Below the pieces are notes generated by a model. It had not been told where the DNA came from, made no database searches, and worked only from the letters and a program-made list of their open reading frames with translations. This document shows positions 37,201 through 53,227 of a stretch of DNA of 64,000 nt, one piece after another; position 1 is the stretch's first letter, and each line of letters starts with the position of its first letter. Origin of the DNA: Branchiostoma floridae (taxonomy: Eukaryota > Chordata > Leptocardii > Amphioxiformes > Branchiostomatidae); NCBI RefSeq assembly GCF_000003815.2, contig NC_049985.1:13953185-14017184 (forward strand), in the 5' to 3' direction. A program made the translations under genes and the position numbers.

Positions 37201-40200
37201 TCTTTGGAGGTGCCTTTCAGTATGCTTCCCCCTGTAATATAATATAATGTGCATGTGTGGAGTGCAGACAGGTAAAATACAGCGCTGTGTGAAAAGCAGC
37301 CGTTTATCTTGTGGCACAGACGGGTTTTTGTCAGCGCTGCAAAGACTCTATCTGTCATGATTAATAGCTGCAAACCCCCAGGGTATTGGTTGGAGATGGT
37401 GCCATTCTTTCCACCCATGGATGTGTCCTGTGATGTGGAAAATGTGATGCCTTTTATATGGGATGTATGCATGTTGCATGCTGATGTTGCTATGTATGCT
37501 ATTGCTATGGAGGGAGTATGTAGCCTGGAGTCCAGCCTTGTTTGCTTTAGTCTGGCAGTTAGCAACCTTCGGGAGAAGACTTAAGCAAACAGGGCTGGAC
37601 TCCAGGCTAGGGAGGATGCACATTTATCAGAGTGTTAGAAATCTACCTGTTTTGAGGAACAAACATTTATATTGTTATATTGCTGTTAATAATGTTTTAC
37701 TACCACTATTTGCATTAAAAGATTACATGTGCTATGTTAAAGTTATGCATTCTGCTATCATTTCAATAAATATCTAATGATTTTATCAATTCATCTAAAC
37801 GNNNNNNNNNNNNNNNNNNNNNNNNNNNNNNNNNNNNNNNNNNNNNNNNNNNNNNNNNNNNNNNNNNNNNNNNNNNNNNNNNNNNNNNNNNNNNNNNNNN
37901 NGGAATTAGTGGAGTATCTGATTACCACTCGGTGTTATAAAGTCCTATGTTCATGTGAACAACACTTGTTCTGTACGTTGACGTACAAAGTTTATTCAAT
38001 TTGTTCTCGTAATTTATTGCACCAGTAAGCCCTTAAACGTATAGATGCCTGCTGATATAATGTGTTCATTTTCTAATTGGTGCAGCATCCAGTTTACTGA
38101 TTTTTGTCAGGTTTGTGTCTGTTAATAAAATTGTACTTAATGAGTTTCAAAATGCAAATGCAGTTTCATTGTGGTATGTTGAAAGGAACGTTTCATTTCT
38201 TTTCGGAAAGCAAAATTATTGAGATTTTGATTCATTACGTCAGTGGTTATGGGCCACAAACTCACTCCATCGGGGTAGCTTGGAATCTTCTCATTTGAAA
38301 TCAATTAGATAAAATATTAGTCAGTGTATTTTACATATATCAAAGAGGGATACACTTTTGTTGAAGTTTCTTCCACGAAGATCCCTTGAAATTTCGAGTA
38401 GTAAGCAATTTTCCACATGCAACCGCCTCCCAGCCCACGTCAGATCTCTGCACAATTCTGGATTTCATAGAGGTAATTCTCCACATCGTGACTTAGGCTC
38501 TGGGTCATTTCAACTTGAGAAGGATCAGAGGACTGATCGAAAGCGTCGGTATATAAGCGCTTTATTTTGTGCACGGATATATGGTCCTAAAATTGTAACA
38601 TCGTAATAACACATCAAAATCGCGACACCCCTTCCCAACATGCGACACTCCCTTGGGACAAAATGGTGGCGCCCATGGACGCCAACGAAAACAATATACT
38701 AGTAGGTTTTGTTATCGCAGGCCTGTAATAAATTGCTATTTGTTCCAACATATGCAACTATACAAAAGTAGTTGTCTATACATGCGACGTTCCGGGCGAG
38801 CTCTCTCCGGTCACCGACCTTCCAAAATTTCCACATGGCTGGGGAGGACGCGAGACGCCGCCAGCGAGACCCCGACGGCTGTTTAATAACACCAAGGAGG
38901 TTAAAAAAGACCTCGTCAGAGAACTTGATGCTGTGCCTTTAGGAGATTCATAAATAGAATAACTGACAAATTCAGTCGGTAACGATTTTTGTATGCAAAA
39001 AAAAAAAATCAAGTTTTATTTGACTCTTTTGACAGTAGACCTCCACAAAACTCAGTAGATACATTGTATATAGCTTTCACATCTTTCCTGTATGTACAAT
39101 GCTCACAGTTCCCTACTCAAGTCAATCTATACACTGTCACCAGTCTTCACCAAACACGATTAGAATGTGCTAAGATTCAGGATGGATGCTTTTTTTCCGT
39201 TCAATGAATGTTGATCAAAGGCAGATATTTCCTCATGATAGCCATCACTTGAGTTGTACAATGTAAAAGTGGAAAGGACATCATATTCTGACTGTATTTC
39301 TTCACTACCTGCTAGCAGAGAGACTGCACCAGTACACACTATGAACATGTACAGACTCCAGATGTTACAGAAGGTATGAATCCTTTATAAGAATAAGGCG
39401 TACTAAAATTACATACCGGTAATTATAGGTTTGTTACAATGGCCATTTCTACACCAAAATCTTACATCATGTCTGTCAACCCAGTTCACATGAGATGGAA
39501 ACAATTGGAGATTTCTTTGATCCGACCTGGTCCTCCCCTCCCCCATCTAAGTTTGTGCTACTCAATATCACTAGTTCATGAAAGGACTTACTATACAATG
39601 GACTAGATATCCTTTACCATATGAGATGACCACAAGCTGACCAGTGTAAAAGCTACAGGTGGTAAGTTTTTTGAAAGCCCATGTTCCCAAGTTTCTGAAG
39701 GATGTATAGTATCCTGTGTGGTAACCATGTGCTACCGCCCGACAACCATCTGTTTGAGATCCTTGAGGCTGTGTTCTCTGGCGACCTGCAGGGCGTGGTC
39801 CAAGGCATGGATCTGCACCAACAGCTTAGCTACCTGCTTAATGCTCTCTCTGTAAGGAAAGGGGATGCAAAAATGAGCGAGTTGTGGGGTAATCAAAACA
39901 TGTTACAACTAGACACATGTTCGATGTAGACACAGGCTTTGTGGCACTGGAACTAACCTACTCACTGTAAAAACCGAAAACTCTCCTTGTTTTAAATATG
40001 AGGTTCAACAACCAAACCTCCAAACAACCAAACAATCAAACAAATAATGATTCTCCAGAAATTTGGACTCCAGGTCAAATAGCAAATGTAACATAGCCAG
40101 ACAATATAATTACTGTTGGTCACTTCTTTTGTGGCCAAGAGCATGTTATCATTTTATTTAGTTATGAAGTTTTCATAGCTTTAGAATGCTACAACAAATA

Positions 40201-43200
40201 CTGTGGATATCCGCCAAATAATGTTAAATTTTGGACAACACTTACGACATTTGTCAGTTTCTTAAAAACATGAAATCTGTAAAAACAGGTACAAATCAAC
40301 ATTTTACCCGTCATGCATATGGCGCATCTGAAGACTAAAAGCAAGGAGGTTAAAGAAGGACTAAAAGCAACGAGGTTAACCTCCTTGCTAAAAGTCATAT
40401 TTTGCTGTATAGTTTATTGTGTCCACCCCTTACCTTGCTTTTCTCCTGACTATGTCGGGACAGCCGATGCTGTTCTTGTGTAGGTTGAAGTTTAGGAAGA
40501 TTTTAGGATCTCTTTCCATTGCAACTACCATCTCTTTTTAACCTCCTTGATCATTACCACACGGCGTACGGTGAAAATGGCACATAATGGGTGAATGTTG
40601 GTGAAACACGGTGAAAATGTGTCACCCGGATTCGCATTGTTCCCATGTAAATATGGAAGGGTGAAAGCAAATATTGCACCTACGTGACAAAAGAGTGAAA
40701 CATGGTGAAATGACGGTTTCACCCCTAGTAAAACAAACAGCAATTACGTCATTGTGTGTTTCACGAGCTAGCGACGTGCTCGCCGCTGTCCAGTCGACGG
40801 CATTGGGACTGAAGACTGCCCGCCCAGTTCCTCAGCGCAAGCCGAGGATTTTTTTCGCATTGCCGCTAGCTCCGCAAGCCGTGGAAATATCTTTGACACT
40901 GGGATTGAAGACTGCCCGCCCAATTCCAGGATTTTTTACGCTTGCAGCTAGCTAAGACGTGCACGTGATCGCAATACGCACCTCTGATTGGTTGATCCTA
41001 CAGCTTTAGGGGGTTCCCCGCTATCTACTTTCTTTGCTGCCCCATGATGCTTTGCGCCCACCCGTGTCAAAGAAAATTTCTTTTACATTTCTACGCACAC
41101 GAAAAACGCTATATTCCACAATTACATTGCAATATTGCCGTGTGGTAGTGACAGATTGTGAGATGAAGATTTCCTTCAACTGCTGGCATTGTAACGTTGT
41201 TATGCTCTGAACTTGCCAAGGACGATAACGTCCTTGGAACTTGCCCAGTGTTTCTTGACCGCCTAATCGTAAGGTCCGACCTACCCCTACCTACTGGGAG
41301 GAAAGACACCACAACGTTTGGACCCTTTCGTACGCGCCGTGTTCACTAAGAGAAACGAAGTGTGACTGATATCCATCGAATACACGTACGCAAAGATACC
41401 TTAAATGTTTTCTCTTTACCTTGCAGATATAGTACAAGTTGAATCGCGGAGGTCTTTGGTTGAATAGACGTCTACAAATACGTTGTGCAGGGCACATTGC
41501 AGGTCCTTTATTCCTGCTAATAAGCCATGCATAAACCAAGCAGCACATTCATGGCAGGCCGATACGTATGTCATACATACTAGTACTTGCATGGCCTTTG
41601 GCAATACCATCGAATCTGCAGGGTAGAATATCTCGCTAGCACGGTATGGCATGGTCGACCCGGACGGACGGACGGACAGACGGACAGCAATCTAATATCA
41701 GTCTGATTGCCTTTCGCCGCGGAAGCGCGGCGAAAGACAAAAAAAGATTTAACATGTTAGATGATACTGGTGTCTTTAGCCTGTGTGTGTCTGTAGCACT
41801 TCAGTGTCAGTGGTAGGAAGATTGACCCACCGGTACTAGTCAAACCTAGATTCAGCAACTGTTGAAGGAACTGAGGTATAATGGTTGCTGAGTACAGGTG
41901 GTTGCTCATGACAGGGTGGGGTTAACTAATAGATGTAACAATGGACAGGACTGTTTTAATGTGTCCTGTGACTGGAGGCGGTTGCCTGTGTCAGGTGGTT
42001 GCCCAACCAGGTTTGATCGTAATACCTGTGCCTGGGCTTTGAACATATATACAGATTTATAACTAAGTGATCCTTAAGAAGGGTTAGAAATGTCACAAGT
42101 CTTTGACACTGATATTTCATATCACATATAGATGACAATGAAAATAAAGGGACTGATTCACTGAAGTGATTTTATTTCCTACAGATGATGGTTGGGAGGA
42201 GGCCAGCTGCAGTGATGAAGATGATGATGACAGCGAGGGATGGGTGGATGTGCAGCATTCCTCAGATGAAGAACAGGTGGGTTATAATACATAGCAGGAC
42301 AGTAGCAGCACCTGTACAAATGACCACTTCAGCTACATAAGGACCACTGGTCTGTTAGATAGTTGTTGTTTTTTCCCATAGACACAAGCATAAAGAATCT
42401 TGACTACTTGTACTTGTCCACAAAGGTCAGAGTTTGTTGGTCTCCTGCATGGGTAGTCTTTTTGGGTAGGGACTTCTTGTAGACTTTTTATTTTGTGTAG
42501 AAAGGAAAAAAATAAACAGAAATCTTGGCAAAATTACACTGTGCTAAGGACAGCATATCAATCTGTTATGAAACCAGAAGGGATGATGACAGCCCATTTA
42601 TTCATTTGGAATTAAGTAGGCACTTGCATTCTCAAGGATGTTTTATAATGTCCTTGGTACTGTAAATGCAGAAATGTTCGTGGTAGTTTTATGCTCGGGG
42701 TTTTTATGTCGGCCACTTCACCGCGAATTTAAAACCACAGCGAACATTTTACCATGATAGTACTATGTGATTACAGTCTATGGCGCTACCGCGAAATTAA
42801 AACCACTGCAAAAACTCCATTTTCCTGCTACCGCGAAAGTAAATCCCCGCAAACTTGAATGCATTTACAGTATTCTAAACAGTCCTTGGTTCTTGCTGTT
42901 AGTTAGAGACATATGGTTTGGACACTTTGTACATTTGTATTCTGATTGTGGGGAGTCCTAGGCTTATGTGCTTGATGTTTATCTGAGTGATGGCAGGTAC
43001 ATGTGATTTTGGCATTTTGCACTCTGAACGGTCCACTGTGGTCAGCTGCATCTGCACATATTTAGGACTGTAAAAAGGGGGATTTAGCCAGTCAGTGTCT
43101 GTTTCCCTTTAGTTATGAAAAAGGACACATAAAACCTACTGAATTGGCCAGATGAGGCCAACATCAACTCTCATAATTCCACCAGGTGCCATAATACCCA

Positions 43201-45851
43201 CACATTATCTCACTATACATGATAAAAATACATATTACCTTACATTTAAAGTGATTAAAAGAGATGTACCAATGCAGCATCAATATAAATTACACTTCTG
43301 ATATTTAACATTAGCTGTTCAAGACTATCTTGAGAAGGCCTCTATAACAATTTTTTTTTAAAAGTGACAAATTCTTTCCTTATAATTGTCATTGTGGCAT
43401 CCCCACCCAATAATAGAAAGGGGAGGGCTGAAGATTGACAGAATTTGTGCCGCTTCAATACCATACAGACACACAGTCACTGAAGCATGGTGCCTGCGTT
43501 TAGAGATCATTGACTTCATTAGCTCCTTTATTGTTTTCCTTAATTATCTAATTTTCTGCTCCACTGTACAGCAGCTAATTGGTTAGGCAGCTCATTTTAA
43601 GACGGGATAAACAGCCATTGTCTCAATGTAGAATTATTGACAATGATCTCGTGTCCAAAATGTTGTAGCAAATTTTCACCGTTAAAGCTTTCGAAATGTG
43701 AATGATAAAAATCTTTTACAAAAGGTATATTGTAGCCTAGAACAACTTGGTTACACAGTTGTATTTAGGAGATTTGTGGTCATAGATAAAAGTTAAAAGA
43801 TGATATGTTTGGCCCCCCTTGTACATAGGGAGAAGACACTACAGCAGAGGGTGAGAAGTTAACACCAGAGATGGCCAAGAGAAAGGCAGCTGCCATCAGC
43901 CAGAGTAGGATCCTGACACAGGAAGATCTAAAACTCATCAGAGCAAAACAGGTATGCTATGTTCACTGAAACAGTCCCTTGACAGAATTTTGTTGCACGG
44001 TATGGGAAAAATTTTCAACCATTCTGTCCTCTGTGACGGGTAGAAATTAAAGTTCAGTTTGATTTTCATCATATTGTCATCAGTATCACTTAACTTATGT
44101 AAAAGTTTACATGTTTTACGTTTCCTTGAAAAAATGCTGGAAATACATGTAGCATTTTTGAGGGTGGTACAGATTGTACAGAATTTCCTGGGAGCATGCT
44201 TCAAACCATTAAACTGATTGAATTTTTTAAAACTGGAGAAAGAGCCCAAATGACCAGAGACTTAGTTTGCTTAGTGCACAACTAGTAGTAGTTTTCAACA
44301 AGGTAATACTGACTTCACTTCTCAGTAGAAATACCTTCCACTTGTCTAAGACCATGCCATCTTGCATTCATTTATACTGTATCATCACTTTCCAGATCTC
44401 CAAAGAGATGGAGAAAGCTGCACCCAAGGGAAAGGGGAAAAAGAGAAAACTTATTCAGATTGAAGACAGAGACACAGGGTGAGTTCATGAATGATTCTTG
44501 GCAGATGAAAGAAATATGTAGGCTGTATGGGAGGCAAACAATTCTCTTCTGCCTTCCTACCTACAATTCTTTCTATTTTCTTCATGTTAGAATGTAACAT
44601 TGTACTCTGTAAATTTCACACATTGATATATTAAAAACTGGTACTTTACGTGTTACAGTGCGGAGTTGCCATCTCTGTCAGACATTGAGAGAATCCACAA
44701 GAAGCCCAAATCAGACAAGGATACACGACTGGCCACTGTCCAGGTAAGGAAGCGAGCAGCTATGCACGGCTGCACTGGTGTCATAAAATTGTCTTGCATT
44801 TTGGTTGTTGTAACCCATGATAAAGTGTACTAGGATTGTAAGACAAATGTAAAGTCTTTTTGGACATAGTACATATCAGAAATGGAGAACAGACAGTCTT
44901 GAATTGTTTTGAATTGTATTTTGTATACGTTGAAGTCAAATTCGCTTTCTAAATGTCTCTTAAAGTTTTTGGCTATTGTAATGTAAAATTGTTCTTTGCT
45001 AAATATAGTATTTTCTACATACAAATGTACATACTTCCTGTATAATACAGTATATCTTTTAAAACAGTAGGTAGCATGTTATTGTATGACTGTTTGTAGA
45101 TGATATTCTGTATAATTCTTTATTGTAGGCTGGTCGGGAAGGAAGGGAAAAGTTTAGTAGCAAAAAGCACAAGAAGAACCAGCGGTCCAGCACAACAAAC
45201 AAGGTACTATGGCCTGCATTTCCATTGTTTTAGCACAATGCCATCACTATAAAGTTGAAAGATTAATACAACATGAGTCAAAAATGGTGCTGCTATTTGT
45301 TAGATAATCAATGCCATACAATTTGTAAAAACCTGATACGTATACCCAGTTTTGTGTTGCAACCAACACAGTCATAATGGAGCTTGCCATTGTGAAAGGA
45401 ATAGTAGAATTTCTGATGTTGAAATTCACTTTCTTTGGTTCCTAGGAAAAGAAGAAGAACAAGGCTTTCATGATGATGAAACAGAAGAAGCAGGTCAGGG
45501 GGAAAGGGAAGAGATCCTTCAGAGACAAACAGGTGGGTGGCCATGTTGTCTGTCCTGCCATACCTGCTGTAACCACTAGGGGGCAGTAATGAGCTAATGT
45601 CCTTGTGCAGTGTAGCATTTACATGTAATGTATAGATAACAGAGAAGAAGTAGAAACCATCCACAAATATTGTTCTTTTGCTATGTTTTTTTAATACCTT
45701 CACCAGCAAGGTTGTGTTTCTGTTTGTCTGATATTTGGTATGTGGTAAGGTCTTGATGACACCTCTCTAACCTCACCAGTCTAAGATCTGATGTTTTTGT
45801 TTCCAGATTGCACTAAGAGATTCACTTCTCAAGAGGAAGAAGCAAGCGTAG
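4172..45851 (+). CDS. SDAD1: SDAD1 (SDA1 homolog), C-terminal half, 13 exons
   Basis: Protein SDA1 is a nucleolar/nuclear factor needed for maturation and export of the 60S ribosomal subunit (known for the yeast and human family). Thirteen exons join in one phase: 4172-4229, 9429-9487, 16278-16354, 16846-16943, 17313-17389, 18023-18137 (or 18143), 42185-42276, 43829-43951, 44396-44478, 44659-44743, 45129-45203, 45446-45532, 45807-45851. The sum is divisible by three and gives 357 (359) residues. Family landmarks are visible in order: [103 protein letters not shown]. The acidic stretch before VQHSSDEEQ and the lysine/arginine-rich tail are typical. The N-terminal half and its exons must lie upstream of the window. 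I am sure of the family; exon edges are read from splice consensus only. Confidence 0.95.
4230..9428. other. SDAD1: SDAD1 intron
   Basis: Intron between two certain exons, 5.2 kb. It holds a short inverted repeat at 4519-4572 and a CpG-containing, possibly repeat-derived patch around 6730-7230. No further exon or RNA gene was recognised. Confidence 0.8.
4519..4572. repeat. 15-bp inverted repeat, short foldback
   Basis: GGATATAGGAGAATT at 4519-4533 is followed 24 bases later by its exact reverse complement at 4558-4572. This could fold into a 15-bp stem. It is probably a degraded inverted-repeat element; no clear target duplication was found. Confidence 0.6.
9429..9487 (+). CDS. SDAD1: SDAD1 exon ([20 protein letters not shown])
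   Basis: The acceptor TTGTGCAG and donor GTAAGT bound the exon. It encodes [19 protein letters not shown], matching the conserved 'EVTxILLxAAQASH' of the SDA1 domain. It enters with two bases of a split codon and leaves at phase 0. Confidence 0.92.
13003..13180 (-). repeat. Candidate tRNA-derived SINE
   Basis: Read on the minus strand from about 13180, the sequence starts GTCCCTGTAGCTCAACTAG, which resembles the acceptor and D arm (A box) of a tRNA. A weak B-box-like GGTTCTAAT follows at usual tRNA spacing, and then an unrelated tail. It does not form a complete tRNA cloverleaf, so I call it a SINE candidate, not a tRNA gene. Confidence 0.35.
14030..14450 (+). repeat. Degenerate tandem repeat, ~130-bp unit
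   Basis: Phrases such as GGAAATCAGTGGGAG (14231 and 14362, 131 bases apart), ACCTGT-GTC-TTCAT and CACCATGGTGAT recur in the same order. A more diverged copy begins near 14040 and a distant relative lies near 13300. This looks like an old tandem duplication of a noncoding unit. Confidence 0.5.
14453..14746. mobile_element. Tc1/mariner-like MITE (CCGTATTTTCTTGATTAAAGT ends)
   Basis: The ends are inverted repeats: TCGTATTTTCTTGATTAAAGT on the left and the reverse complement of CCGTATTTTCTTGATTAAAGT on the right, with one mismatch. A TA dinucleotide flanks each side (14451-14452, 14747-14748), the target duplication of Tc1/mariner-type transposons. The 294-bp interior has no coding capacity, so it would need a transposase from elsewhere. 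Confidence 0.8.
15195..15330 (+). repeat. Candidate tRNA-derived SINE head
   Basis: The stretch TGGTGTAGAGGTCTG near 15227 resembles a tRNA A box, and GGGTCAAATTCCG near 15268 resembles a B box at about the expected distance. Together they suggest the head of a tRNA-derived SINE. The 140-residue open frame that overlaps it shows no protein-like features and is probably fortuitous. Confidence 0.35.
15556..15607 (+). repeat. 26-bp tandem duplication
   Basis: TGATTTACCTGTAGGGTTAA plus ACTTAA occurs twice head to tail without a mismatch (15556-15581, 15582-15607). The perfect identity suggests a recent duplication. Confidence 0.9.
16278..16354 (+). CDS. SDAD1: SDAD1 exon ([13 protein letters not shown]...)
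   Basis: The acceptor CCTCCAG and donor GTGAGT bound the exon. It encodes [20 protein letters not shown] and then EVMTV, a strongly conserved helix-loop of the SDA1 domain. The exon ends after two bases of a glycine codon. Confidence 0.94.
16846..16943 (+). CDS. SDAD1: SDAD1 exon ([15 protein letters not shown]...)
   Basis: The acceptor CTCCACAG and donor GTAAGG bound the exon. It encodes [20 protein letters not shown], then [12 protein letters not shown], matching the family motif 'INAIKEI..RCPLAM..ELLQDLAQYK'. It leaves with one base of a split asparagine codon. Confidence 0.94.
17313..17389 (+). CDS. SDAD1: SDAD1 exon ([17 protein letters not shown]...)
   Basis: The acceptor TTTACCCAG and donor GTGAGT bound the exon. 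It encodes [20 protein letters not shown], then HKKDR, the conserved segment ending in the basic residues just before GKPTEAS. It leaves at phase 0. Confidence 0.94.
18023..18137 (+). CDS. SDAD1: SDAD1 exon (GKPTEAS...[12 protein letters not shown])
   Basis: The exon begins right after a CAG acceptor with GKPTEAS and carries [15 protein letters not shown], both hallmarks of SDA1 proteins. Two in-phase donors are possible: GTGAAG after 18137, or GTCAGA after 18143, which adds two residues. The first fits the donor consensus better. Either joins to the exon at 42185 and restores an aspartate codon. Confidence 0.9.
21219..21400 (+). repeat. 97-bp tandem duplication, diverged
   Basis: GTGGGCACCG...CTTACTTTGTCTGTGTCACA...CAAAATGTA...GATTCAAAAG...CAGCCTT appears at 21219 and again at 21316. 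The two copies differ by small indels and substitutions. Confidence 0.8.
21404..21439. repeat. 36-bp perfect palindrome
   Basis: The left arm ATGTCAGTGCCACTGCCC (21404-21421) is followed directly, with no spacer, by its exact reverse complement (21422-21439). It adjoins the second copy of the 97-bp duplication. Confidence 0.95.
23306..23342. repeat. 37-bp near-perfect palindrome
   Basis: CCATACCATA at 23315-23324 is followed directly by its reverse complement, and the symmetry extends through ATATTTCA/TGAAATAT with one bulged G at 23314. It lies just before a TTTC microsatellite. Confidence 0.85.
23358..23377 (+). repeat. (TTTC)5 microsatellite
   Basis: Five uninterrupted TTTC units. The following sequence (to about 23700) is more CpG-rich than its surroundings and may be a transposon remnant, but no ends were found. 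Confidence 0.85.
23860..24020 (+). promoter_or_regulatory. Candidate TATA promoter inside the SDAD1 intron
   Basis: TATATACA at 23871-23878 sits in a locally CpG-rich stretch (23700-24060) unlike the AT-rich surroundings. A start about 30 bases downstream would place transcription near 23905, followed by an ATG at 24021 and a strong donor at 24112. This is inference from composition and spacing only. Confidence 0.3.
24021..24111 (+). CDS. Candidate short first exon, unknown
   Basis: An ATG at 24021 opens 30 codons, starting [18 protein letters not shown], that run into a consensus donor GTAAGT after 24111. A possible acceptor at 24230 (CTGCCAG) would give a 118-base intron and stop 15 codons later. 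I do not recognise the peptide, and it may be noncoding. Confidence 0.2.
24221..24412 (+). other. Open frame without ATG, 63 codons, protein-like
   Basis: This plus-strand frame contains [20 protein letters not shown] then [20 protein letters not shown] before the stop TAA at 24410-24412. The composition looks like a charged helical protein. It has no start codon, and no acceptor with a good pyrimidine tract was found, so it could be an exon of an unseen gene, a remnant or chance. Confidence 0.25.
26161..27055. mobile_element. TA-flanked DNA transposon remnant (CAGTCAAACCTGT ends)
   Basis: The left end CAGTCAAACCTGT (26161) and right end ACAGGTTTGACTG (27055) are exact inverted repeats flanked by TA on both sides (26159-26160, 27056-27057). 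Next to each end are several copies of AGCGGCCACC or ATAGTGGCCAC, arranged inward as subterminal repeats. The 895-bp interior has no transposase frame, so this is a non-autonomous Tc1/mariner-type element. The ends resemble a family seen in many invertebrate genomes (from memory, unverified). Confidence 0.85.
29062..29597 (-). pseudogene. Minus-strand exon with membrane helix, apparent frameshift
   Basis: A strong acceptor (TTTCCTCATCTATTCCAG on the minus strand) precedes 29597. From there one frame reads [20 protein letters not shown] then [13 protein letters not shown] and stops at TGA 29494-29492. The next frame then runs [18 protein letters not shown], a hydrophobic helix [29 protein letters not shown] and a polar tail to a stop at 29062. 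Dropping one T near 29495 would join the two into one membrane protein with an outside NTT glycosylation site. So this is either a broken gene, an assembly error, or the membrane segment is a separate exon starting near 29529. I do not recognise the family. Confidence 0.45.
29641..29760. repeat. AACCGG-rich repeat fragment
   Basis: The motif ACCGG or its complement occurs at least eight times in about 100 bases in both orientations (ACCGGTCCG, GAACCGGAC, GTCCGGTT, AAACCGGAA, AAACCGGTTTT). It looks like the end of a transposable element that may extend to about 30430, where the base composition returns to normal. No target duplication was found. Confidence 0.4.
35740..36210 (+). repeat. Degenerate ~30-36-bp repeat (AATGCTTAACGGTTAATTC)
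   Basis: Variants of AATGCTTAACGTTAAATTC recur at about 35743, 35779, 35810, 36013, 36096, 36157 and 36192, with similar spacing between neighbours. They suggest an old, decayed minisatellite. The region has no coding frame of note. Confidence 0.45.
37521..37609. mobile_element. ~90-bp foldback element, copy 1
   Basis: The ends TAGCCTGGAGTCCAGCC and GGCTGGACTCCAGGCTA are exact inverted repeats of 17 bases. The flanks GGGAGTATG (left) and GGGAGGATG (right) match at 8 of 9 positions, as expected for a 9-bp target duplication. The interior carries CGACCTTCGGGAG-like sequence (AACCTTCGGGAG) shared with copy 3. It is too short to encode anything. Confidence 0.85.
37802..37901. other. Assembly gap (100 N)
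   Basis: Exactly 100 N, the usual placeholder for a gap of unknown size. Sequence on both sides belongs to the long SDAD1 intron. The open frame drawn across it is meaningless. Confidence 1.
38893..38904 (+). repeat. Solo CAAGGAGGTTAA end
   Basis: A single copy of the 12-base end motif found in the foldback elements at 40342 and 51969. No partner end was matched. It follows a CpG-rich stretch (38540-38880) whose function I cannot name. Confidence 0.5.
39732..39849 (-). CDS. Nested antisense gene, exon 2
   Basis: On the minus strand a textbook acceptor (TGCATCCCCTTTCCTTACAG) is followed by 38 codons, [20 protein letters not shown] then [18 protein letters not shown], and a stop at 39734-39732. 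Codons are GC-ending in most positions, as in real exons. The first base completes the split arginine codon left by the exon at 40434, so the two join in phase. The peptide forms an amphipathic helix pattern. If a weak donor after 39736 (GTAGCA) is used instead of the stop, the exon also joins in phase to the one starting at 29597. I do not recognise the protein. Confidence 0.6.
40256..40286 (-). other. Possible cassette exon between the antisense exons
   Basis: On the minus strand the acceptor CTGTTTTTACAG and the donor GTAAGT bracket 31 bases that could read [10 protein letters not shown] after completing the split codon. Inclusion would shift the frame of exon 2 and stop at once, so it could act as a poison exon. 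It may equally be chance. Confidence 0.2.
40342..40387. mobile_element. 46-bp foldback with CAAGGAGGTTAA ends
   Basis: CAAGGAGGTTAA at the left and TTAACCTCCTTG at the right are exact inverted repeats, flanked by an exact 7-bp direct repeat CTAAAAG (40335-40341 and 40388-40394). The inside contains CTAAAAGCAACGAGGTTAAC, a partial copy of the left end with its flank. Confidence 0.75.
40434..40531 (-). CDS. Nested antisense gene, exon 1
   Basis: The minus strand reads [20 protein letters not shown] then [12 protein letters not shown], ending with two bases of a codon at a consensus donor GTAAGG after 40434. Phase 2 matches the acceptor at 39849. An in-frame TAA lies just upstream in a CAAGGAGGTTAA repeat copy, and there is no pyrimidine-tract acceptor, so either this is the true first exon (ATG 40531 or 40519) or the insertion cut off an earlier part. 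There is no signal peptide. Together with exon 2 it would make a 71-residue protein. Confidence 0.55.
40538..40549 (-). repeat. Solo TTAACCTCCTTG end
   Basis: A single end motif of the CAAGGAGGTTAA family, directly upstream of the antisense first exon. It supplies the in-frame stop before that exon's ATG. No partner end with matching flanks was found. Confidence 0.55.
40560..40725 (+). repeat. GGTGAAA-rich degenerate repeat
   Basis: The phrase ACGGTGAAAATG occurs twice and GGTGAAA or its complement TTTCACC several more times in about 165 bases. It ends in GACGGTTTCACCCC, which is inverted relative to the start. It may be an old inverted-repeat element. Confidence 0.4.
40801..40935 (+). repeat. 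96-bp imperfect tandem duplication
   Basis: GGGACTGAAGACTGCCCGCC near 40805 recurs as GGGATTGAAGACTGCCCGCC near 40901, with GGATTTTTT and GCTAGCT following in each. The 96-base period is a multiple of three, so a chance open frame repeats LGLKTARP twice. The area is CpG-rich with a CACGTG at about 40963 and an inverted CCAAT box near 40987, so it may be regulatory. Confidence 0.6.
41661..41687 (+). repeat. GGAC microsatellite
   Basis: Six to seven GGAC/AGAC units directly follow GGTCGACCC. Next comes a GC-rich hairpin at 41711-41736. Confidence 0.8.
41711..41736. repeat. GC-rich 11-bp hairpin
   Basis: CTTTCGCCGCG (41711-41721), loop GAAG, then its exact complement CGCGGCGAAAG (41726-41736). 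With the GGAC run it resembles the tail of a transposable element of unknown type. Confidence 0.75.
42185..42276 (+). CDS. SDAD1: SDAD1 exon, acidic segment ([12 protein letters not shown])
   Basis: The acceptor CCTACAG and donor GTGGGT bound the exon. It encodes [19 protein letters not shown] then [11 protein letters not shown], the acidic linker shared by the family. It follows the longest intron of the gene, about 24 kb. Confidence 0.95.
42277..43828. other. SDAD1: SDAD1 intron with one MITE
   Basis: Intron between certain exons. Apart from the TA-flanked element at 42660-42871 nothing was recognised. Confidence 0.8.
42660..42871. mobile_element. 212-bp MITE (CTGTAAATGCA ends)
   Basis: CTGTAAATGCA at the left and TGCATTTACAG at the right are exact inverted repeats, flanked by TA on each side (42658-42659, 42872-42873). 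Inside are repeated ACCGCGAA(A/T)TTAAAACCAC blocks. It is a non-autonomous element of Tc1/mariner type by its duplication. Confidence 0.85.
43829..43951 (+). CDS. SDAD1: SDAD1 exon ([18 protein letters not shown])
   Basis: The acceptor ACATAG and donor GTATGC bound the exon. It encodes [20 protein letters not shown], then [20 protein letters not shown], corresponding to the 'RKAKAAAISTSRVLTQEDF' region of vertebrate SDAD1. Both ends are phase 0. Confidence 0.95.
44396..44478 (+). CDS. SDAD1: SDAD1 exon (basic linker)
   Basis: The acceptor TTTCCAG and donor GTGAGT bound the exon. It encodes [20 protein letters not shown] then QIEDRDT, a lysine-rich linker typical of nucleolar proteins. It ends after two bases of a glycine codon. 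Confidence 0.93.
44659..44743 (+). CDS. SDAD1: SDAD1 exon ([15 protein letters not shown])
   Basis: The acceptor GTTACAG and donor GTAAGG bound the exon. It encodes [20 protein letters not shown] then DTRLATVQ, matching the conserved '[22 protein letters not shown]'. It leaves at phase 0. Confidence 0.95.
45129..45203 (+). CDS. SDAD1: SDAD1 exon (AGREGREKF...)
   Basis: The acceptor TATTGTAG and donor GTACTA bound the exon. It encodes [20 protein letters not shown] then STTNK, aligning to 'AGKTDRKEF..KKTKTNPFSSSTNK' of vertebrates. Both ends are phase 0. Confidence 0.94.
45446..45532 (+). CDS. SDAD1: SDAD1 exon ([13 protein letters not shown]...)
   Basis: The acceptor TTCCTAG and donor GTGGGT bound the exon. 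It encodes [20 protein letters not shown] then GKRSFRDKQ, matching 'EKKKQKNFMMMR...KRSFREKQ'. Both ends are phase 0. Confidence 0.95.
45807..45851 (+). CDS. SDAD1: SDAD1 last coding exon with stop
   Basis: The acceptor GTTTCCAG opens the exon. It encodes [14 protein letters not shown] and then the stop TAG at 45849-45851, corresponding to the basic C-terminus 'LALRDALLKKRKR' of the family. Confidence 0.95.
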   Translation: MALRDSLLKRKKQA

Positions 45852-46420
45852 TCCAGGAACATTGAAAGCTAGATTTGTCTTGTATGGGAAGAACACAATG
45901 TCATATTACTATGTTACAATGAAAATCAGACTACCTTGTATCATATTCCATACTGTATCATGCAGCACTGAAATGGAATTGAATTATGCAAATTAGAACA
46001 ATTTACTTGATGTTGCCTCCTTGTTTGTTATTCATACAACATTTTGGTTTTCCCAATCCAAAAACAAAGAATGATGCTCTTGTCCCATCCCTTATAACAT
46101 TCTATGTCTGCATTTCGACAATTTAACTAAGTCGGTCTCTGCTCTATTATTATAAATGCTGTATGTATCTACTATTCCACTCAATAGCAATTGTCACAAA
46201 TGTGCACAACTAAGTAGATGTAGTTGATGATAATGTTACAGTCACTGTTAATCAGTTTACCTGATGTTGATCTCAGGATTATCTACAAACCACGATACCC
46301 ACTGTGTGGATTGCATTGAATTCCATGAAGCTATTTCAGTGTGATTTTCTTTTACCAAACATGCAATGCAAGGAAGCTGGTCAATTATGATTCATCAATC
46401 AAAGTACGATGTGGAATAAA
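45852..46420 (+). other. SDAD1: SDAD1 3' untranslated region with AATAAA
   Basis: The sequence after the stop is AT-rich and noncoding. The first clear AATAAA polyadenylation hexamer is at 46415-46420. I infer that the transcript ends shortly after it. Confidence 0.55.
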
Positions 46421-46861
46421 TCAACTCCTAAAAAGTTATGTTGCTGTGTATTGATTGAAGTTGATTATTTGAGTGGCTGATGGTGTGAAGTAAATGAGTA
46501 ATGAATTTTATGTAATTGGATCAGTGTAAGGCCTGTGATGTCAGAGCAAGGACGTTATATTGGTCAGAACAGAGATTGAAAAAGAATTTGCATACCAGAG
46601 CTAGATTTTTACTGACAGATGGGTTCTTAAAAGTGATGGATTGAGATGCTGATATAGATTAATATGAACTGCCATTGATAGGACATGCCCAATTGCCACT
46701 TTCACTTGCCAGGGATAATTAGACTATTGGACTAGTCCAACCAGCACATTCATATGAGTAGATTCAAAAGAAGATGTGAAGGAACAAAAATGAAAAATCC
46801 ATTGTTCGGTATACAATACTTTGTGTTTAGTTAACCTCCCTGCGATGATCACTTAGATTTC

Positions 46862-46930
46862 TTTTTTTTTTTATTCTCATGCTGGCATCAGTTTTTGGAT
46901 ACCCAGAAGATGTCATCCATATAATCAAAT
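46862..46930 (+). repeat. T-run + CATCAGTTTT repeat, copy 1
   Basis: A T run followed by ATTCTCATGCTGGCATCAGT, then CCAGAAGATGTCATCCATATAATCAAAT. The copy near 59740 has CATTTGCACGCTCGCATCAG, then CCAGATTATCTCATCCATATAATGAAAT. They are clearly related members of a dispersed family. Confidence 0.65.
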
Positions 46931-46952
46931 CATACTTCATGGAGGTATGAGA

Positions 46953-47042
46953 TAGCTTGGGTACCATCTTTTGGAGTAACTAGCTCAATCTTCCCCAGCA
47001 AAAAGATTGAGACAATTACTACAGAGGAAAGTACCCAGGCTA
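46953..47042. mobile_element. ~90-bp foldback element, copy 2
   Basis: The ends TAGCTTGGGTAC and GTACCCAGGCTA are inverted repeats with one mismatch. The flanks GGTATGAGA (46944-46952) and GGTATGGGA (47043-47051) match at 8 of 9 positions. An inner hairpin (CTCAATCTT/AAGATTGAG-like) differs from the other copies, so only length, end motif and duplication size are shared. Confidence 0.7.
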
Positions 47043-47889
47043 GGTATGGGATCTTCAATTTCTTGTAAATTTTAACTGTAACTGTACAAATTATATTTTA
47101 TCTGTGGGGTAAATTCTTGGTTCAACAGTTCTTCCATGACTGGGGTCCGTGGTAGTGGATTTCATTTCATTTTTTCTATCTATTTAACCAGGAAAAACAC
47201 TGACAAAAAAGTGACGAAAGGGTATCGAGGGTCAATGTTTGAGTTTACATTCCTCAATATTTACCACGAAATGACATTAAATGCTAACATGACAGAAAAG
47301 CATAGCAGGTGGTGTGTTTTGGATGAAAATTTTGTTTTGGCCTGAGGCTCATTACCAGGTATCCATACACCTTGAAAGTGAAGCGGTTCCCTGACCTAGT
47401 TTGACCTCTGATGTGCTGTAAAACCTGAAATGAACTGGGGTCTGCCCGCTTAACCCTCTTCCATGGCAAAGAATACTTACATCACAGTCACAAATGCAGG
47501 AAATACAATAATGGTGACATCACATAACCAAAGCAATGACTGTGGTACAATATAAATTCACATTGGATTCAACAACCTGTGCAGAAAGGGTAGAAACTGT
47601 GATTTGAAGGAAGAAACATCATACTAACATGCTATAGTACAAAATATGTTCTCCCCTAGGGATGAGTATTGACTTCCATCAAGGCAAATTGAGCCTCATG
47701 TGGTGGGTGGTTCCATTCAAGCAGAAGGTGGTTAAATGGCTCTGCTGTTGACATTCTTTGAGCATGTTAAAGATAATAAAAGATCCCACCACATTTTTGA
47801 TAAAAGTGGAGATTTGCCCTTATAAATTTTTTCCCAAACTGGGGACATCCCTATCTCATGCCTTCTATCCTGTCACTAAAGAAGGTATA

Positions 47890-48021
47890 GTGATGACACG
47901 AAAGAAGAAGAAGATTAAAGAAGTGATGACACGAAAGAAGAAGAAGATTAAAGAAGTGATGACACGAAAAAAGAAGAAGATTAAAGAAGTGATGACACGA
48001 AAGAAAAAGAAGACTAAAGAA
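47890..48021 (+). repeat. 33-bp minisatellite, 4 units
   Basis: Four nearly identical 33-base units start at 47890, 47923, 47956 and 47989. Because 33 is a multiple of three, an open frame (47758-48087) carries four VMTRKKKKIKE units. The frame has no splice context or recognisable flanks, so I do not call it a gene. Confidence 0.95.
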
Positions 48022-48656
48022 GGTGAAAACAATGTATTGAATATTTTATGCCCTCTCTGGCCTAGGGCAGCAGCTTGTTTCATGTAACGTTACAAAGAGC
48101 AACTTTTCCATTTTCAAAATGTAAGGTTACGCATTTGATTTTAGAAACTGAAAAAATTGTAACGCTTATTAAAATTAAAGTGAAATAGAAGGTTATAAAG
48201 AAATGTCAACATTTTTCTCCCAAAGCTATAACTTACTAACGTTACATGTAGTATGACCACAGCAAATAAATTTTATGGATGGCATCGTCTGCCGACTTCA
48301 AACATACTTAGATAGGGCAACAACAACAAAAAACAAGATGGGCACACAAAAAACAAGATTGCAAATGTTCAAAATCAACACCATTAACATAACAAGAATG
48401 ACAAAATATGGCATCACAAACAGTAAGGCAGTCGTGTGAAAGTGCACTAGTGTAGTGAAAGTGACACTAGTGTGGTAGACTACTCATGGTTTCCATCTTG
48501 GTGCCACTCATACAACTATCCAGCAAGTTTCACTTCTGCAACTTAGCCTCCATAGCAAGCAGGCTCTCTTGTTTGTTTGTTTTCTGAAATGAGGCAAAAA
48601 TTGATGAGCGCATGGATGTCATCCATAAAACTTACTTGCTGTGGCCTATATTGAAG

Positions 48657-48749
48657 TAGCCTGGAATCCAGCCTTGTTAGCTTTGTTTCGCCGAGTGGCG
48701 ACCTTCGGGAGCGGAACAAAGCTATTAAACAAGGCTGGACTCCAGGCTA
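48657..48749. mobile_element. ~90-bp foldback element, copy 3
   Basis: The ends TAGCCTGGAATCCAGCCTTG and CAAGGCTGGACTCCAGGCTA are 20-bp inverted repeats with one mismatch. An exact 9-bp direct repeat ATATTGAAG flanks it (48648-48656, 48750-48758). Inner arms GCTTTGTTTCGC.../GCGGAACAAAGC extend the hairpin. Confidence 0.9.
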
Positions 48750-49049
48750 ATATTGAAGCTGTGAGTTATGTTGACATAACGTTACCCTGGGGCAAATAGA
48801 TAATGAGGGTCAAATAGGTGAAAATAGTTAACGTTTAATGATAGTTGACGAATGGAGATGACGAATTCATTGTTCTTCTACTGATAAAGACTGTGAATAA
48901 ACAACACCTTCAGCAGAAGAGCACTTTTAAAACACGTCATCGATCGAAACTCAAAATGCCCCACTTCCCAGAACGAAAGGGTGTTTTCCCGGGTAAAACA
49001 CACCCCTCCCAAATATGGAGGTGGGTATTGTTCTGCTTCCTGAGCAGGT

Positions 49050-49190
49050 CAGCTGGCCGGCATCTGACCAATCACAGCGCTGAATATCAATCTAATTACG
49101 TGACGTCCTCATTTGACATGCAACTCTCCCATCGACCAGTTGTAGCTAAAAGGGGGAGGGGATTTCCCAAAGTTGTAGGTCTAGTATGCG
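49050..49190 (+). promoter_or_regulatory. Promoter of gene 2: CCAAT, CRE-like, kappaB-like sites
   Basis: CCAAT lies at 49068-49072 (GACCAATCACAG, an NF-Y type site), a CRE-like TGACGTCC at 49101-49108, and GGGGATTTCCC, a match to the NF-kappaB consensus, at 49158-49168. No TATA box is present. They lead into an exon with a strong donor at 49246. Factor names rest on motif match only. Confidence 0.5.
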
Positions 49191-49245
49191 TGTAACCAAG
49201 ACCTAACCTCTACGGCCAACACATCGAGACCTCAGCGATCATAAG
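49170..49245 (+). other. Candidate noncoding first exon of gene 2
   Basis: The sequence before 49246 is followed by the consensus donor GTATGT (49246-49251). No ATG opens a useful frame. The next plausible exon on this strand starts at 55950 and begins with untranslated sequence, so this would be a 5' untranslated exon. Its start is a guess. Confidence 0.4.
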
Positions 49246-51968
49246 GTATGTGTTTGTAGGCTGCTATTTTGCCGATTTTTGGCACTTTCCCATGCGATCT
49301 TGCGTGACCTCCCTTGACCTAACAAAGTTATCGTGCCGATATGCTATCAGGTGGTGGGCACGTTGAAATGCCAGCACGAAGGCCGCTGGTGTAACATGGA
49401 AACACTTCACTCTACGGGCGCGTGGAAGCGTCTTAGCTTACATCCAGTATTCTAGTAAGATGCTAGGAAGTTGTGTGCTCCATATCCACTTTAGATCGCT
49501 GCTAAATCCAAGCTATAGGACTTTCTAGGGTCCCACCTTGCTTCGGATCTATCGATCTTCGTGTAGATTATGTTTACATACACACCCCTGTTCTGGTTGT
49601 AATCAACACAATCTGCACAAGACAGTCATGATATCTCTACATTACACTGAAATGTGGTGAAACAGCATTGGACATAGCCTAGTACTTAGCAGAAAGTTTG
49701 AACTGTGGCCTGGTTTAGAGTACTCTACTCCAACTAGAAATCAAACGCTTTCATTTTTGTACACATGCCCTGAGCGTGGGCTGGAAAACATGTCTGGCAG
49801 GTTCCTCAGCTACACTGAACAGCCCCAGGCTCAGGATGACTCATGGTCACAAAAACACCACGGTGATTCAGTATCATTCACGGTCAGCGAATTGTACCTT
49901 TGAACAACTATCCAATATAGAAAGAACGGTACCATGCTCTTAACATGGGCTGTGATATACGTGTAAGGAAAATGGAAGACCATGGTTTAGTAGTTCTGCA
50001 TTTTGTTGTAAAGGTGAGTTTGGGTTTGAGTTGTGTCACGCTGAGGCCATTCAAAATCAAAGAACCTGAGTCTGCTTGAATAGCAGTGTACCTTGACAGC
50101 TCCCACCCCATGAAGAAAAATCTCTACAACTTTTATTGAGCCACATATTTTACTCAGACAAGAGTAATAGAATTAAGGTTGTAGTTATCAACTAGTCATA
50201 TAATTTCATTGTGCATGAAGAAAACACAGTGTCAGGAATGTAAATCACTTTTTTCTTGGGGGGGGGTACATTTCTGCATGAGGAAAGGGTCGTCTAAAGA
50301 AGGCAAAATATTCTTGTGTGTTCTTGCCAGGTACTAGTATGTAGAACATTTTTGCACCGGTGGAAACTTTCTTCATGAGATATTTCTTACACCTACAACA
50401 GGTGGTCATAGGTGTGGACTGTGTCATCATCACTGCTTTTAATACAGTTGAACTGAGGAAAGCTTTGTCATCTAACAAGTGACAGATAAGTTTTTGTGCC
50501 CCAAAATGCTCTCAAACACACACATATGCATACATAAATACATACATGCATAGACAGTACACATACATACAAGTGTATATCATAGAATGGACAAAAAACT
50601 GCTGTACTGTATAGTAGCATACTCGTAGTATTATAACACAATGAAAATTTACGTAGCATTTCTAGGGTTAACATTACCTTGTCTTGCTGTGTTATTGAAT
50701 ATTAATGATATACATGATAACATGATAATGATATCATAATGTCACTTCCAGTTCCATGCATTTCTTGCACATACTACAAATGTCACCTGAATGTTAAAGG
50801 GTCTTCAGAATTTTTTGGAATTTGTAAGATTTTTCATTGGATTTGTGGTCATATTTATCTCCTATCAGCTTTTCAATGATCGTTGCAGAATCCATCATTA
50901 TCATGAAAGTGAATTATTTATGTTACTTCTAACAAGACAGGTCAGGGGCTACTACATTTTTTTTGTATTTCTAACAAGCAGTTCGACTATCAAGTGACCC
51001 TTCAATACATAGTACTAGTAGTAGAATCTATGCCTTTTTCATGTCCATCAACATGTTTCACGTTTTTGCAAAATACCAGTAAACATTTTTATCCTTGATC
51101 ACTGATGTATCACAAACCTGTAGAAGATGATAGTGACCAAAATTCTTCCATGTGACCAACACTTTAAGAACACAGATCTATGGCTTCAAGGCATGCTAGC
51201 GCAAGTCTGTGTATAGTGACATGGTCCTTGGCTCAAGGATATTTTGTGATGACTCCAATAATTCATATCGATTGTTTCAAATGATCCTATTCCTAGTGTT
51301 AGTGGTGTGCCCCTCCCCAACCCACATCCTTAAAATTCTGATGTTATGTTGTGTTCTTTTCATTTTTCAATAGGCTTCAGTCAAACATCAAATAAGTGTC
51401 CTGACAGTCACGTTTTCGAATTGTTGAAAAGGGGTTATTTGTTGTGCCTAGATGCTCGGTCTCATTATTATTCATATGTTGTTGTTAAAACATAGTCCAT
51501 GTTTGATGAAATTGTCTATTGTCTGGATTCAAGAGAACAAAGTTTTTGTGTACAATCACATGTGTCTAATCTGTATTGAAATCTCTTGGTTATCAAATGT
51601 TCGATGACACTATTGATTTGAAATACTGAAGCTATTCAGAAAAAACAGACGCCATCTTTTGGTACGTGACCTTGGAGCACGTTGTGTTTACCTGTCCAGG
51701 TGAGCATACCATTTCATACTCACTATTGTATGCATGCTTGGCACTGTGACCTTTGGCCTCTGTCTCAGCTGTCTAGCTCGTTCTTTTTCGTTGTTGTCCT
51801 CTATGTGATTTGATTTTGACATTGATGTTAGACTGGTATCCCTAGAAAATTGTTGTCTTGAATTATGATTGCAATTTGCAAACAATAAACTGGTTGGTTG
51901 TTGGAGTACTAGTAATTTCCTTTTAAAACTACATGTACATCATTGTTGTTTTCCTATCTGTCTCTGAG

Positions 51969-52002
51969 CAAGGAGGTTAAACTCTTTCTTTTAACCTCCT
52001 TG
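51969..52002. mobile_element. 34-bp foldback with CAAGGAGGTTAA ends
   Basis: CAAGGAGGTTAAA and TTTAACCTCCTTG are exact 13-bp inverted repeats separated by only 8 bases, and an exact 7-bp direct repeat CTCTGAG flanks them (51962-51968, 52003-52009). The end motif and duplication length match the element at 40342. Confidence 0.8.
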
Positions 52003-53227
52003 CTCTGAGTTTGCAGCCACATGTACAAACAGGCATAACAAAAAAATGAAATGAGTGAGAACAGGAGTCATGAGGCTCAAGTGTGACCAAGCTCCTTGGT
52101 GTGACATAAACCGTTAAAAGTTTGCTTCAGTTTTGCAACCATACACATTTTCAGAGCAAGATTTCTTTAGTTTTGTACTGAAAATATGAACTCAACTAAT
52201 TTGTAACAGTTAACCACTCACAGTCAAAACAGTACCGGTAACTACAGATGTAGAATATACTTTATAGGGCATTACTCAAGAGAAATACATGCTAGTTAGA
52301 GTTGTAAAGTAAATAGTGATGATGAGCCCCCCTCCCCATGTTGCTGTTTTGGGGGTGCCCCCAATCCATTGTAATTCCCTGTATTAGCATATAGCAGACA
52401 ATAGCAGCACCCAGCACCCTAAATGAGCTATTTATGAAGTTCCCTCCAGTGGATCATTCAACCCACAAGTCCCTCCCACCCCATCATACTTTCACACCCT
52501 GTGAAGCCAGATTAGCATGCTTGTGACAACCATTAAATTGGGCTTGCACATTATTGTTACAAGGTCCCTACTGGGTGACATGGGATCTTACACTTTAGGT
52601 AGCAGTGGGTGTTAGAGCTGACACAGTTGGTGTTATGTCCTTCTCTTCCTACCAGTTTCACATAGGAGCTTTTATCAACATAGCTCTGCAATAGGCCTAG
52701 GAAAAAATGTATTTTCAATTACACCTTGAAAATTTAGAGTCTGTAGCTACAGATTTTCTTTTTTAGATTTCAGCCAAAGTGATCCAGCAAACACTGTTGA
52801 ACAAAGTAAAATATCAGGACACTCGTATTCTAATCTAATATCATTCTAATCATCCAGTATACATTGTCAAGACTCAAAGCACAATTTTCTATTTGGGCAC
52901 AAATGACGACAATGTTTTGGAAAACGATTCTACAACATTTTTATCACTAACACAGTTAGGCCAGTAGGGTGTCAGATTAAAAATTGTGTCTCTTGCCAGT
53001 GCTATGGGCAGACCAAAAAAAGGTAAGGGTTGCAATTTATAGATAGGGTCAGGTGACCAAAAACACAAACATTTTTTTCCTTACAACATTTCATGTTTCA
53101 CTCAGGGATTACAGCATGCAAACTGTTGTCTCTTCAGCAGCAAAACCAACAGTTTTGCTATCAGCTTATAGAGATTTGACTGATTAAACTGTCAGAATCA
53201 GTTTGTTTTCTTCACCACATACCTGTA

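Follow-up and report, generated by a model that had tools for sequence, protein, structure and literature searches.

What are foldbacks of a few tens of base pairs that stand between perfect 7-bp direct repeats? Two such units lie in a stretch of 64,000 nucleotides of the Branchiostoma floridae genome (C7:13953185-14017184, in the following called the window; the genome comprises 513 Mb in 431 contigs). Most probably these foldbacks are excision scars left behind by a cut-and-paste transposon resembling the P superfamily, with a 7-bp GTNNNAC-like target and a staggered cut of about 21 nt, which were healed by alternative end joining.

According to this model a transposon with the ends CAAGGAGGTTAA... 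would insert at palindromic GTNNNAC-like sites and produce 7-bp target duplications. On exit, the transposase would cut one strand at the extreme end of the element but the other some 21 nt further in, and each flank would keep a 3′ single-stranded stub with at most about 21 nt of element sequence. These stubs would be joined by the host via 1-3 annealed bases, at times after copying some of the flank as filler. The expected product is the repeat, at most 21 nt of the left end, at most 20-21 nt of the right end and again the repeat, mostly with 19-42 bp between the repeats; one of the two stubs would often be trimmed nearly away. By title and abstract, no published description of such scars was found in the open-licence literature (amphioxus P elements, MITEs with 7-bp duplications, genome-wide transposon footprints), and none of the papers containing CAAGGAGGTTAA or its complement deals with this subject among the matches listed.

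Foldbacks and solitary ends in the window

The 46-bp unit (40342-40387, plus strand) lies between two exact copies of CTAAAAG (40335-40341 and 40388-40394, plus strand) and the 34-bp unit (51969-52002, plus strand) between two exact copies of CTCTGAG (51962-51968 and 52003-52009, plus strand), both as an earlier note on this DNA had described them. The 34-bp scar consists of the left stub CAAGGAGGTTAA(A) and a right stub of about 20-21 nt, (A)CTCTTTCTTTTAACCTCCTTG. When 12-nt arms flanked by 7-bp repeats with at most one mismatch were searched for in the window, two cases were found versus none in any of five simulated order-1 Markov sequences.

The solo ends reported together with these units are also seen in the window sequence. 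The one at 38893-38913 (plus strand) is the 21-nt end CAAGGAGGTTAAAAAAGACCT, a one-sided scar without partner end or second flank repeat, whose 21 nt recur identically in four other loci (L015, L018, L032, L064). For the other, a one-sided end CAAGGAGGTTAA at 40538-40549 (minus strand), no matching 7-bp repeat was seen. A single 1657-bp element reaching from 38893 to 40549 was rejected, as the flanks ATAACAC and ATCATTA differ and the homology with other copies extends beyond both ends.

Scars with related ends are present as well. At 41209-41244 (plus strand) the sequence CAAGGACGATAACGTCCTTG (41217-41236) is found between 8-bp repeats GAACTTGC, and a probable scar of the CAAGGACGTTAT family, recognised by eye, is located at 46540-46569 (plus strand), where CAAGGACGTTATATTG (46547-46562) stands between GTCAGAG and GTCAGAA (6/7 identical). 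Both belong to the CAAGGACG group. Elsewhere in the genome, 7-bp-repeat scars were found for the related ends CAAGGACGTTATATC (L040) and CAAGGAGCTTT (L105, L132), whereas no 7-bp case occurred in one simulated set of equal size.

Further repeats of the window are two foldbacks with the ends TAGCCTGGA, at 48657-48749 (9-bp direct flanks ATATTGAAG) and at 37521-37609 (33-nt arms with 94% complementarity), which look like one MITE family, and a tandem repeat of about four 33-bp units at 47889-48020.

Genome-wide abundance and 7-bp flanks

The 12-mer CAAGGAGGTTAA occurs 3393 times in the genome (1688+1705), versus 41 times (21+20) for the reversed control, and close inverted pairs with 0-30 nt between the ends number 389 versus none for the control. 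From these 389 pairs, 50 were scored for their flanks, all on contigs C1 and C2 and three of them (L013, L017, L136) being copies of the window's own 46-bp unit. Exact 7-bp repeats flank 37 of the 50 pairs; if one mismatch is allowed, the number rises to 45. From base composition, an exact 7-bp repeat would arise by chance with a probability of about 9e-5 per pair. Exact repeats of 5, 6 or 9 bp were found in none of the 50 and of 8 bp in a single pair (L042), which is one of the five pairs with more than one mismatch at 7 bp (L014, L020, L042, L135, L165). In this sample the excess of 7-bp flank identity over chance, on which the earlier note had made its reading depend, is therefore clearly present.

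The 46-bp unit and the repeat that carries it

While coordinates and flanks of the 46-bp unit stand, it is not a simple hairpin: it holds a third CTAAAAG (40361-40367, plus strand), which is probable templated filler, and must therefore be regarded as a complex join. Read by eye, it is composed of the left stub CAAGGAGGTTAAAGAAG, filler resembling flank and end (GACTAAAAG CAACGAGGTTAA) and the right stub CCTCCTTG. Nor did the unit insert independently at 40342, because it is carried within a multicopy repeat. The segment 40200-40560 has 36 matches in the genome, and 29 of these, the window's own counted, are whole-length with 94-100% identity. This young repeat covers at least 38562-41744 of the window (plus strand; at least 3.2 kb) and terminates at a GC hairpin and an A-run near 41744; the copies compared (L139-L144) are about 99.5% identical to each other. 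Our guess is a retroelement or a Helitron-like element. The scar at 41209-41244, which is also present in the copies L013 and L139, is a passenger of the same young repeat too.

Three copies of the repeat (C149, C6, C1:24622406) contain a 55-bp form of the scar in which the second end is unmutated, and the 46-bp form of the window was probably derived from it via loss of 9 bp and one substitution. A diverged paralogue at C9:12515034 represents the empty site: it has a single CTAAAAG and no insert, and the sequence continues gap-free. This is a paralogous site and not another haplotype. Taken with the strong excess of 7-bp target duplications, it bears out the claim that the units originated by transposition.

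In the copy C6:18436369-18438289 the two halves of the scar are matched separately, about 1.56 kb from each other and with four bases in common (TTAA, window 40376-40379), a pattern which suggests that a TTAA-specific element may have inserted into the scar. The match C7:15931264-15931443 ends at the same point.

Target site and probable superfamily of the parent element

At 81 scar sites, the 7 bp before insertion show G at position 1 (50%) and T at position 2 (74%), with A and C at positions 6-7; outside of the duplication, T at -3 (67%) and A at +3 are preferred. As both strands are pooled in these figures, symmetry is built into them. We therefore refer to a count per site, for which 89 sites were separated by their flank sequence, so that near-identical repeat copies may be counted repeatedly: T2 occurs in 61 and A6 in 72 sites, the two coincide in 47 and are both missing from three, and T-3 is combined with A+3 in 38. 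Because T2 and A6 occur together in individual sites, the symmetry of the target is real. Duplications of 7-8 bp with a GT..AC palindromic core, as they characterise the P superfamily, are thus found here.

Within this superfamily the closest resemblance in target choice is to Galileo, for which the available parts of two papers describe duplications of 7 bp, rarely 8 bp, GTANTAC-type palindromic cores (GTAGTAC / GTATTAC) within a wider palindrome and a target motif beyond the duplication (PMC2775673, PMC4168063). The same partial sources show differences. Galileo is known from large copies with long inverted repeats, whereas here we deal with scars only, and the outer flanking target base of P, 1360 and Galileo is A in contrast to the T at -3 found here, which counts against an assignment to P.

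An RNase H domain of the P-type transposases was detected at three places in the genome, and the two larger of these transposase-like loci have long open frames (L096 on C19, L097 on C11). Within 2.6-3.0 kb on each side of the C19 and C11 loci no inverted ends were found that have a 7- or 8-bp repeat in common, and the loci were rejected as the parent; the 12-mer is present nearby in one exact copy (L153:959) and in several with one or two mismatches, all unpaired. A CAAGGAGGTTATGG match beside the C11 locus was discarded, since by eye it has the appearance of coding sequence. For the C6 locus the check covered its 3.2 kb. Among the places examined no intact copy of a transposon with these ends was found, and hence we infer both the superfamily and the 21-nt stagger from the scars. 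As no transposase is linked to the ends, the match to the P superfamily rests on the mode of action.

The missing link to a parent or a transposase also speaks for the main alternative, in which the scars derive from a transposon of another superfamily, for example a hAT-like or an undescribed one, that combines 7-bp duplications with a long stagger. GT...AC target cores occur in hAT elements too. However, hAT excision proceeds via hairpinned flanks and leaves few element bases, which counts against a hAT parent. We consider another superfamily unlikely, although its odds overlap with those of the P-superfamily-like parent: the 7-bp, sometimes 8-bp, GTNNNAC duplications fit Galileo, and P is known to cut with a long 3′ stagger, the accessible part of one study giving 17-nt 3′ extensions for the Drosophila P transposase (PMC7776569).

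A limit near 21 nt

The 21-mer end CAAGGAGGTTAAAGAATCACT is found at 42 places in the genome, all of which were read. Every one of them lies between 7-bp direct repeats (41 exact, one with a single mismatch, L004), and seven are just 19-26 bp long. The 42 places represent about 36 independent events, because 36 distinct contexts were recognised in 41 loci, one of them being another GTCTTAC-repeat copy, before L163 joined the set. Seven of the places (L102, L104, L120, L124, L126, L128, L130) are copies of one repeat. Beyond nt 21 the 42 places have no common continuation that is unexplained by the partner end. Therefore, no intact element of the CAAGGAGGTTAAAGAATCACT subfamily resides at any of them. 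The second subfamily CAAGGAGGTTAAAAAAGACCT, to which the window end at 38893 belongs, likewise shows no common continuation beyond 21 nt at its nine distinct sites.

The lengths of the scars are limited in a similar way. The 50 sampled pairs measure 26-42 bp, with the addition of the three 46-bp copies of one site, and the search had permitted 54 bp; of the sites with exact repeats 87/89 are not longer than 42 bp (19-48 bp range scored). Longer scars are L025 with 60 bp, L070 with 48 bp and one mismatch, and L022 with 43 bp, which is doubtful. The largest stubs, as seen from scars only, comprise 21 nt on the left and 20-21 nt on the right.

One 39-bp scar (GTCTTAC) is located within at least seven copies of another repeat, from which it follows that scars are heritable and can be spread by repeats that carry them along.

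Junctions between the stubs

The common length classes of 39, 37 and 33 bp correspond to the left tail ...CACT pairing, through its final 2-3 bases, with one CT after the next in the right tail. Among the 36 contexts, 12 have a junction overlap of 3 nt, 15 of 2 nt, three of 1 nt and two of 0 nt; three joins have a negative value (filler or later substitution) and one was unscored. The right end ACTCTTTCTTTAACCTCCTTG used for this counting was itself read from joins, and the 3-nt class may therefore be 2 nt. An overlap of at least 2 nt is present in 27/36 joins compared to 16/38 under uniform joining, which is a simple null (binomial p ~6e-5), and if the duplicate is dropped in 26/35 (p 1e-4). 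Flank-like filler was found in the 46-bp scar of the window and in L025.

The sites thus carry the marks of an excision footprint, namely both target duplications, stubs truncated from the inside, and microhomology or filler at the joins. The closest counterparts are the P footprints of Drosophila melanogaster, which in the portion of the source at hand show the same order of duplication, TIR stub, optional filler, opposite stub and duplication, with annealing of 3′ tails at microhomologies and templated inserts, which depend on Pol theta (PMC2895639), and we infer Pol-theta-type repair for the amphioxus scars as well. According to the same partial source the duplications and tails there are 8 bp and 17 nt long, as opposed to 7 bp and probably about 21 nt here, and the footprints were produced in the laboratory from a marked element, whereas here they accumulated naturally and no resident parent was found.

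Loss of one end with both repeats intact

A second sample started from single ends and comprised 70 exact 12-mers in 59 loci within the first 12.7 Mb of C1, a subset of the 100 places listed. Four of the 59 loci (L044-L047) had been picked as possible longer elements, and ends too close to the edge of a locus were left out. Within 90 bp, 27 of the 70 ends have an exact 7-bp repeat, 12 a repeat with one mismatch and 31 none, versus 53 exact and eight one-mismatch cases for 2360 random anchors. The repeats of the 39 matched ends are spaced by 19-48 bp, including stubs of 2-7 nt. Leaving aside four weak cases (L047, L082, L084, L088), the matched ends are either part of an intact pair or face an arm which was eroded from the inside while both repeats survived. 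Examples for the latter are ATATAAT-CAAGGAGGTTAAAATCACCTTG-ATATAAT (L044) and CTTATAC-CAAGGAGGTTAAAAATCACTTG-CTTATAC (L092). The 31 ends without a repeat could stem from one-sided or decayed scars and in principle also from intact elements; for 29 of them a BLAST of the downstream DNA, often just 100-500 bp, gave matches of 17-21 nt only and no full-length family with a shared interior. As about half of the sampled single ends have a recognisable repeat, a rough extrapolation from this one stretch of C1 to all 3393 places gives a genome-wide figure of the order of 1,500, which is an estimate and not a count.

Copies in which one arm is cut down to a few nucleotides between intact repeats could not have jumped as they stand. 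We therefore do not follow the earlier note in viewing the units as very small mobile elements: many sites keep both 7-bp repeats with one end mostly or wholly lost from the inside, nearly all lengths stop at about 42 bp, and the joins fall on short microhomologies. In favour of ultra-short MITEs of 20-46 bp, mobilised by a transposase acting on little beyond two ends, it could be argued that identical 39-bp and 37-bp units occur at unrelated sites with 7-bp duplications and that the C9 paralogue provides an empty site. But the same choice of 2-3 annealed nucleotides accounts for the identical units, and P transposases require long subterminal sequence. Two intact ends, as expected for a MITE, are not what many sites with intact repeats offer, where one end is down to a few nt; exact repeats also enclose the 19-26-bp units among the CAAGGAGGTTAAAGAATCACT places and more units of this kind in the 70-end sample. 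This makes mobility of the foldbacks themselves very improbable.

The Anopheles gambiae MITEs derived from P elements are, as far as the available section of their description goes, comparable in being short and in having P-type ends and target duplications as their boundaries (PMC1562414). According to the same section they differ in that they are non-autonomous, possess an interior and have duplications of 8 bp, while the units described here have no interior and often miss most of one end.

Least of all do we favour internal-deletion derivatives, whose interior was lost without excision via abortive gap repair or slippage between inverted ends: P elements do produce internal deletions and the product would likewise consist of two end fragments within one target duplication, but endpoints should then occur at many interior positions, whereas nothing is shared past nt 21 in 42/42 places and just 3/50 pairs, all copies of one site, exceed 42 bp though up to 54 bp had been permitted.

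Scars as a possible record of germline repair

Excision followed by end joining, as we propose it for these sites, is an ordinary mechanism; what is unusual is its natural scale, and the source element was not found. A tentative and rather doubtful explanation for this is a P-like family that exits so efficiently that practically no resident copies are left in the assembly, against scars numbering roughly a thousand or more. The remaining copies of such a family would have to be very rare, be carried by other individuals, lie in DNA missing from the assembly or be excised almost completely, perhaps at a set time in development. In that case numerous independent repairs of germline breaks, all with identical ends, would be archived naturally in this genome.

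If the scar reading is right, very small palindromes between target duplications, which are easily annotated as ultra-short MITEs, can be the tombstones of a departed transposon. A chordate genome would then offer many near-identical natural double-strand-break repair events, with known ends and flanks and in many replicates, and the spectrum of germline end joining, that is the choice of microhomology, the copying of filler and the trimming, would be readable from the sequence and datable.
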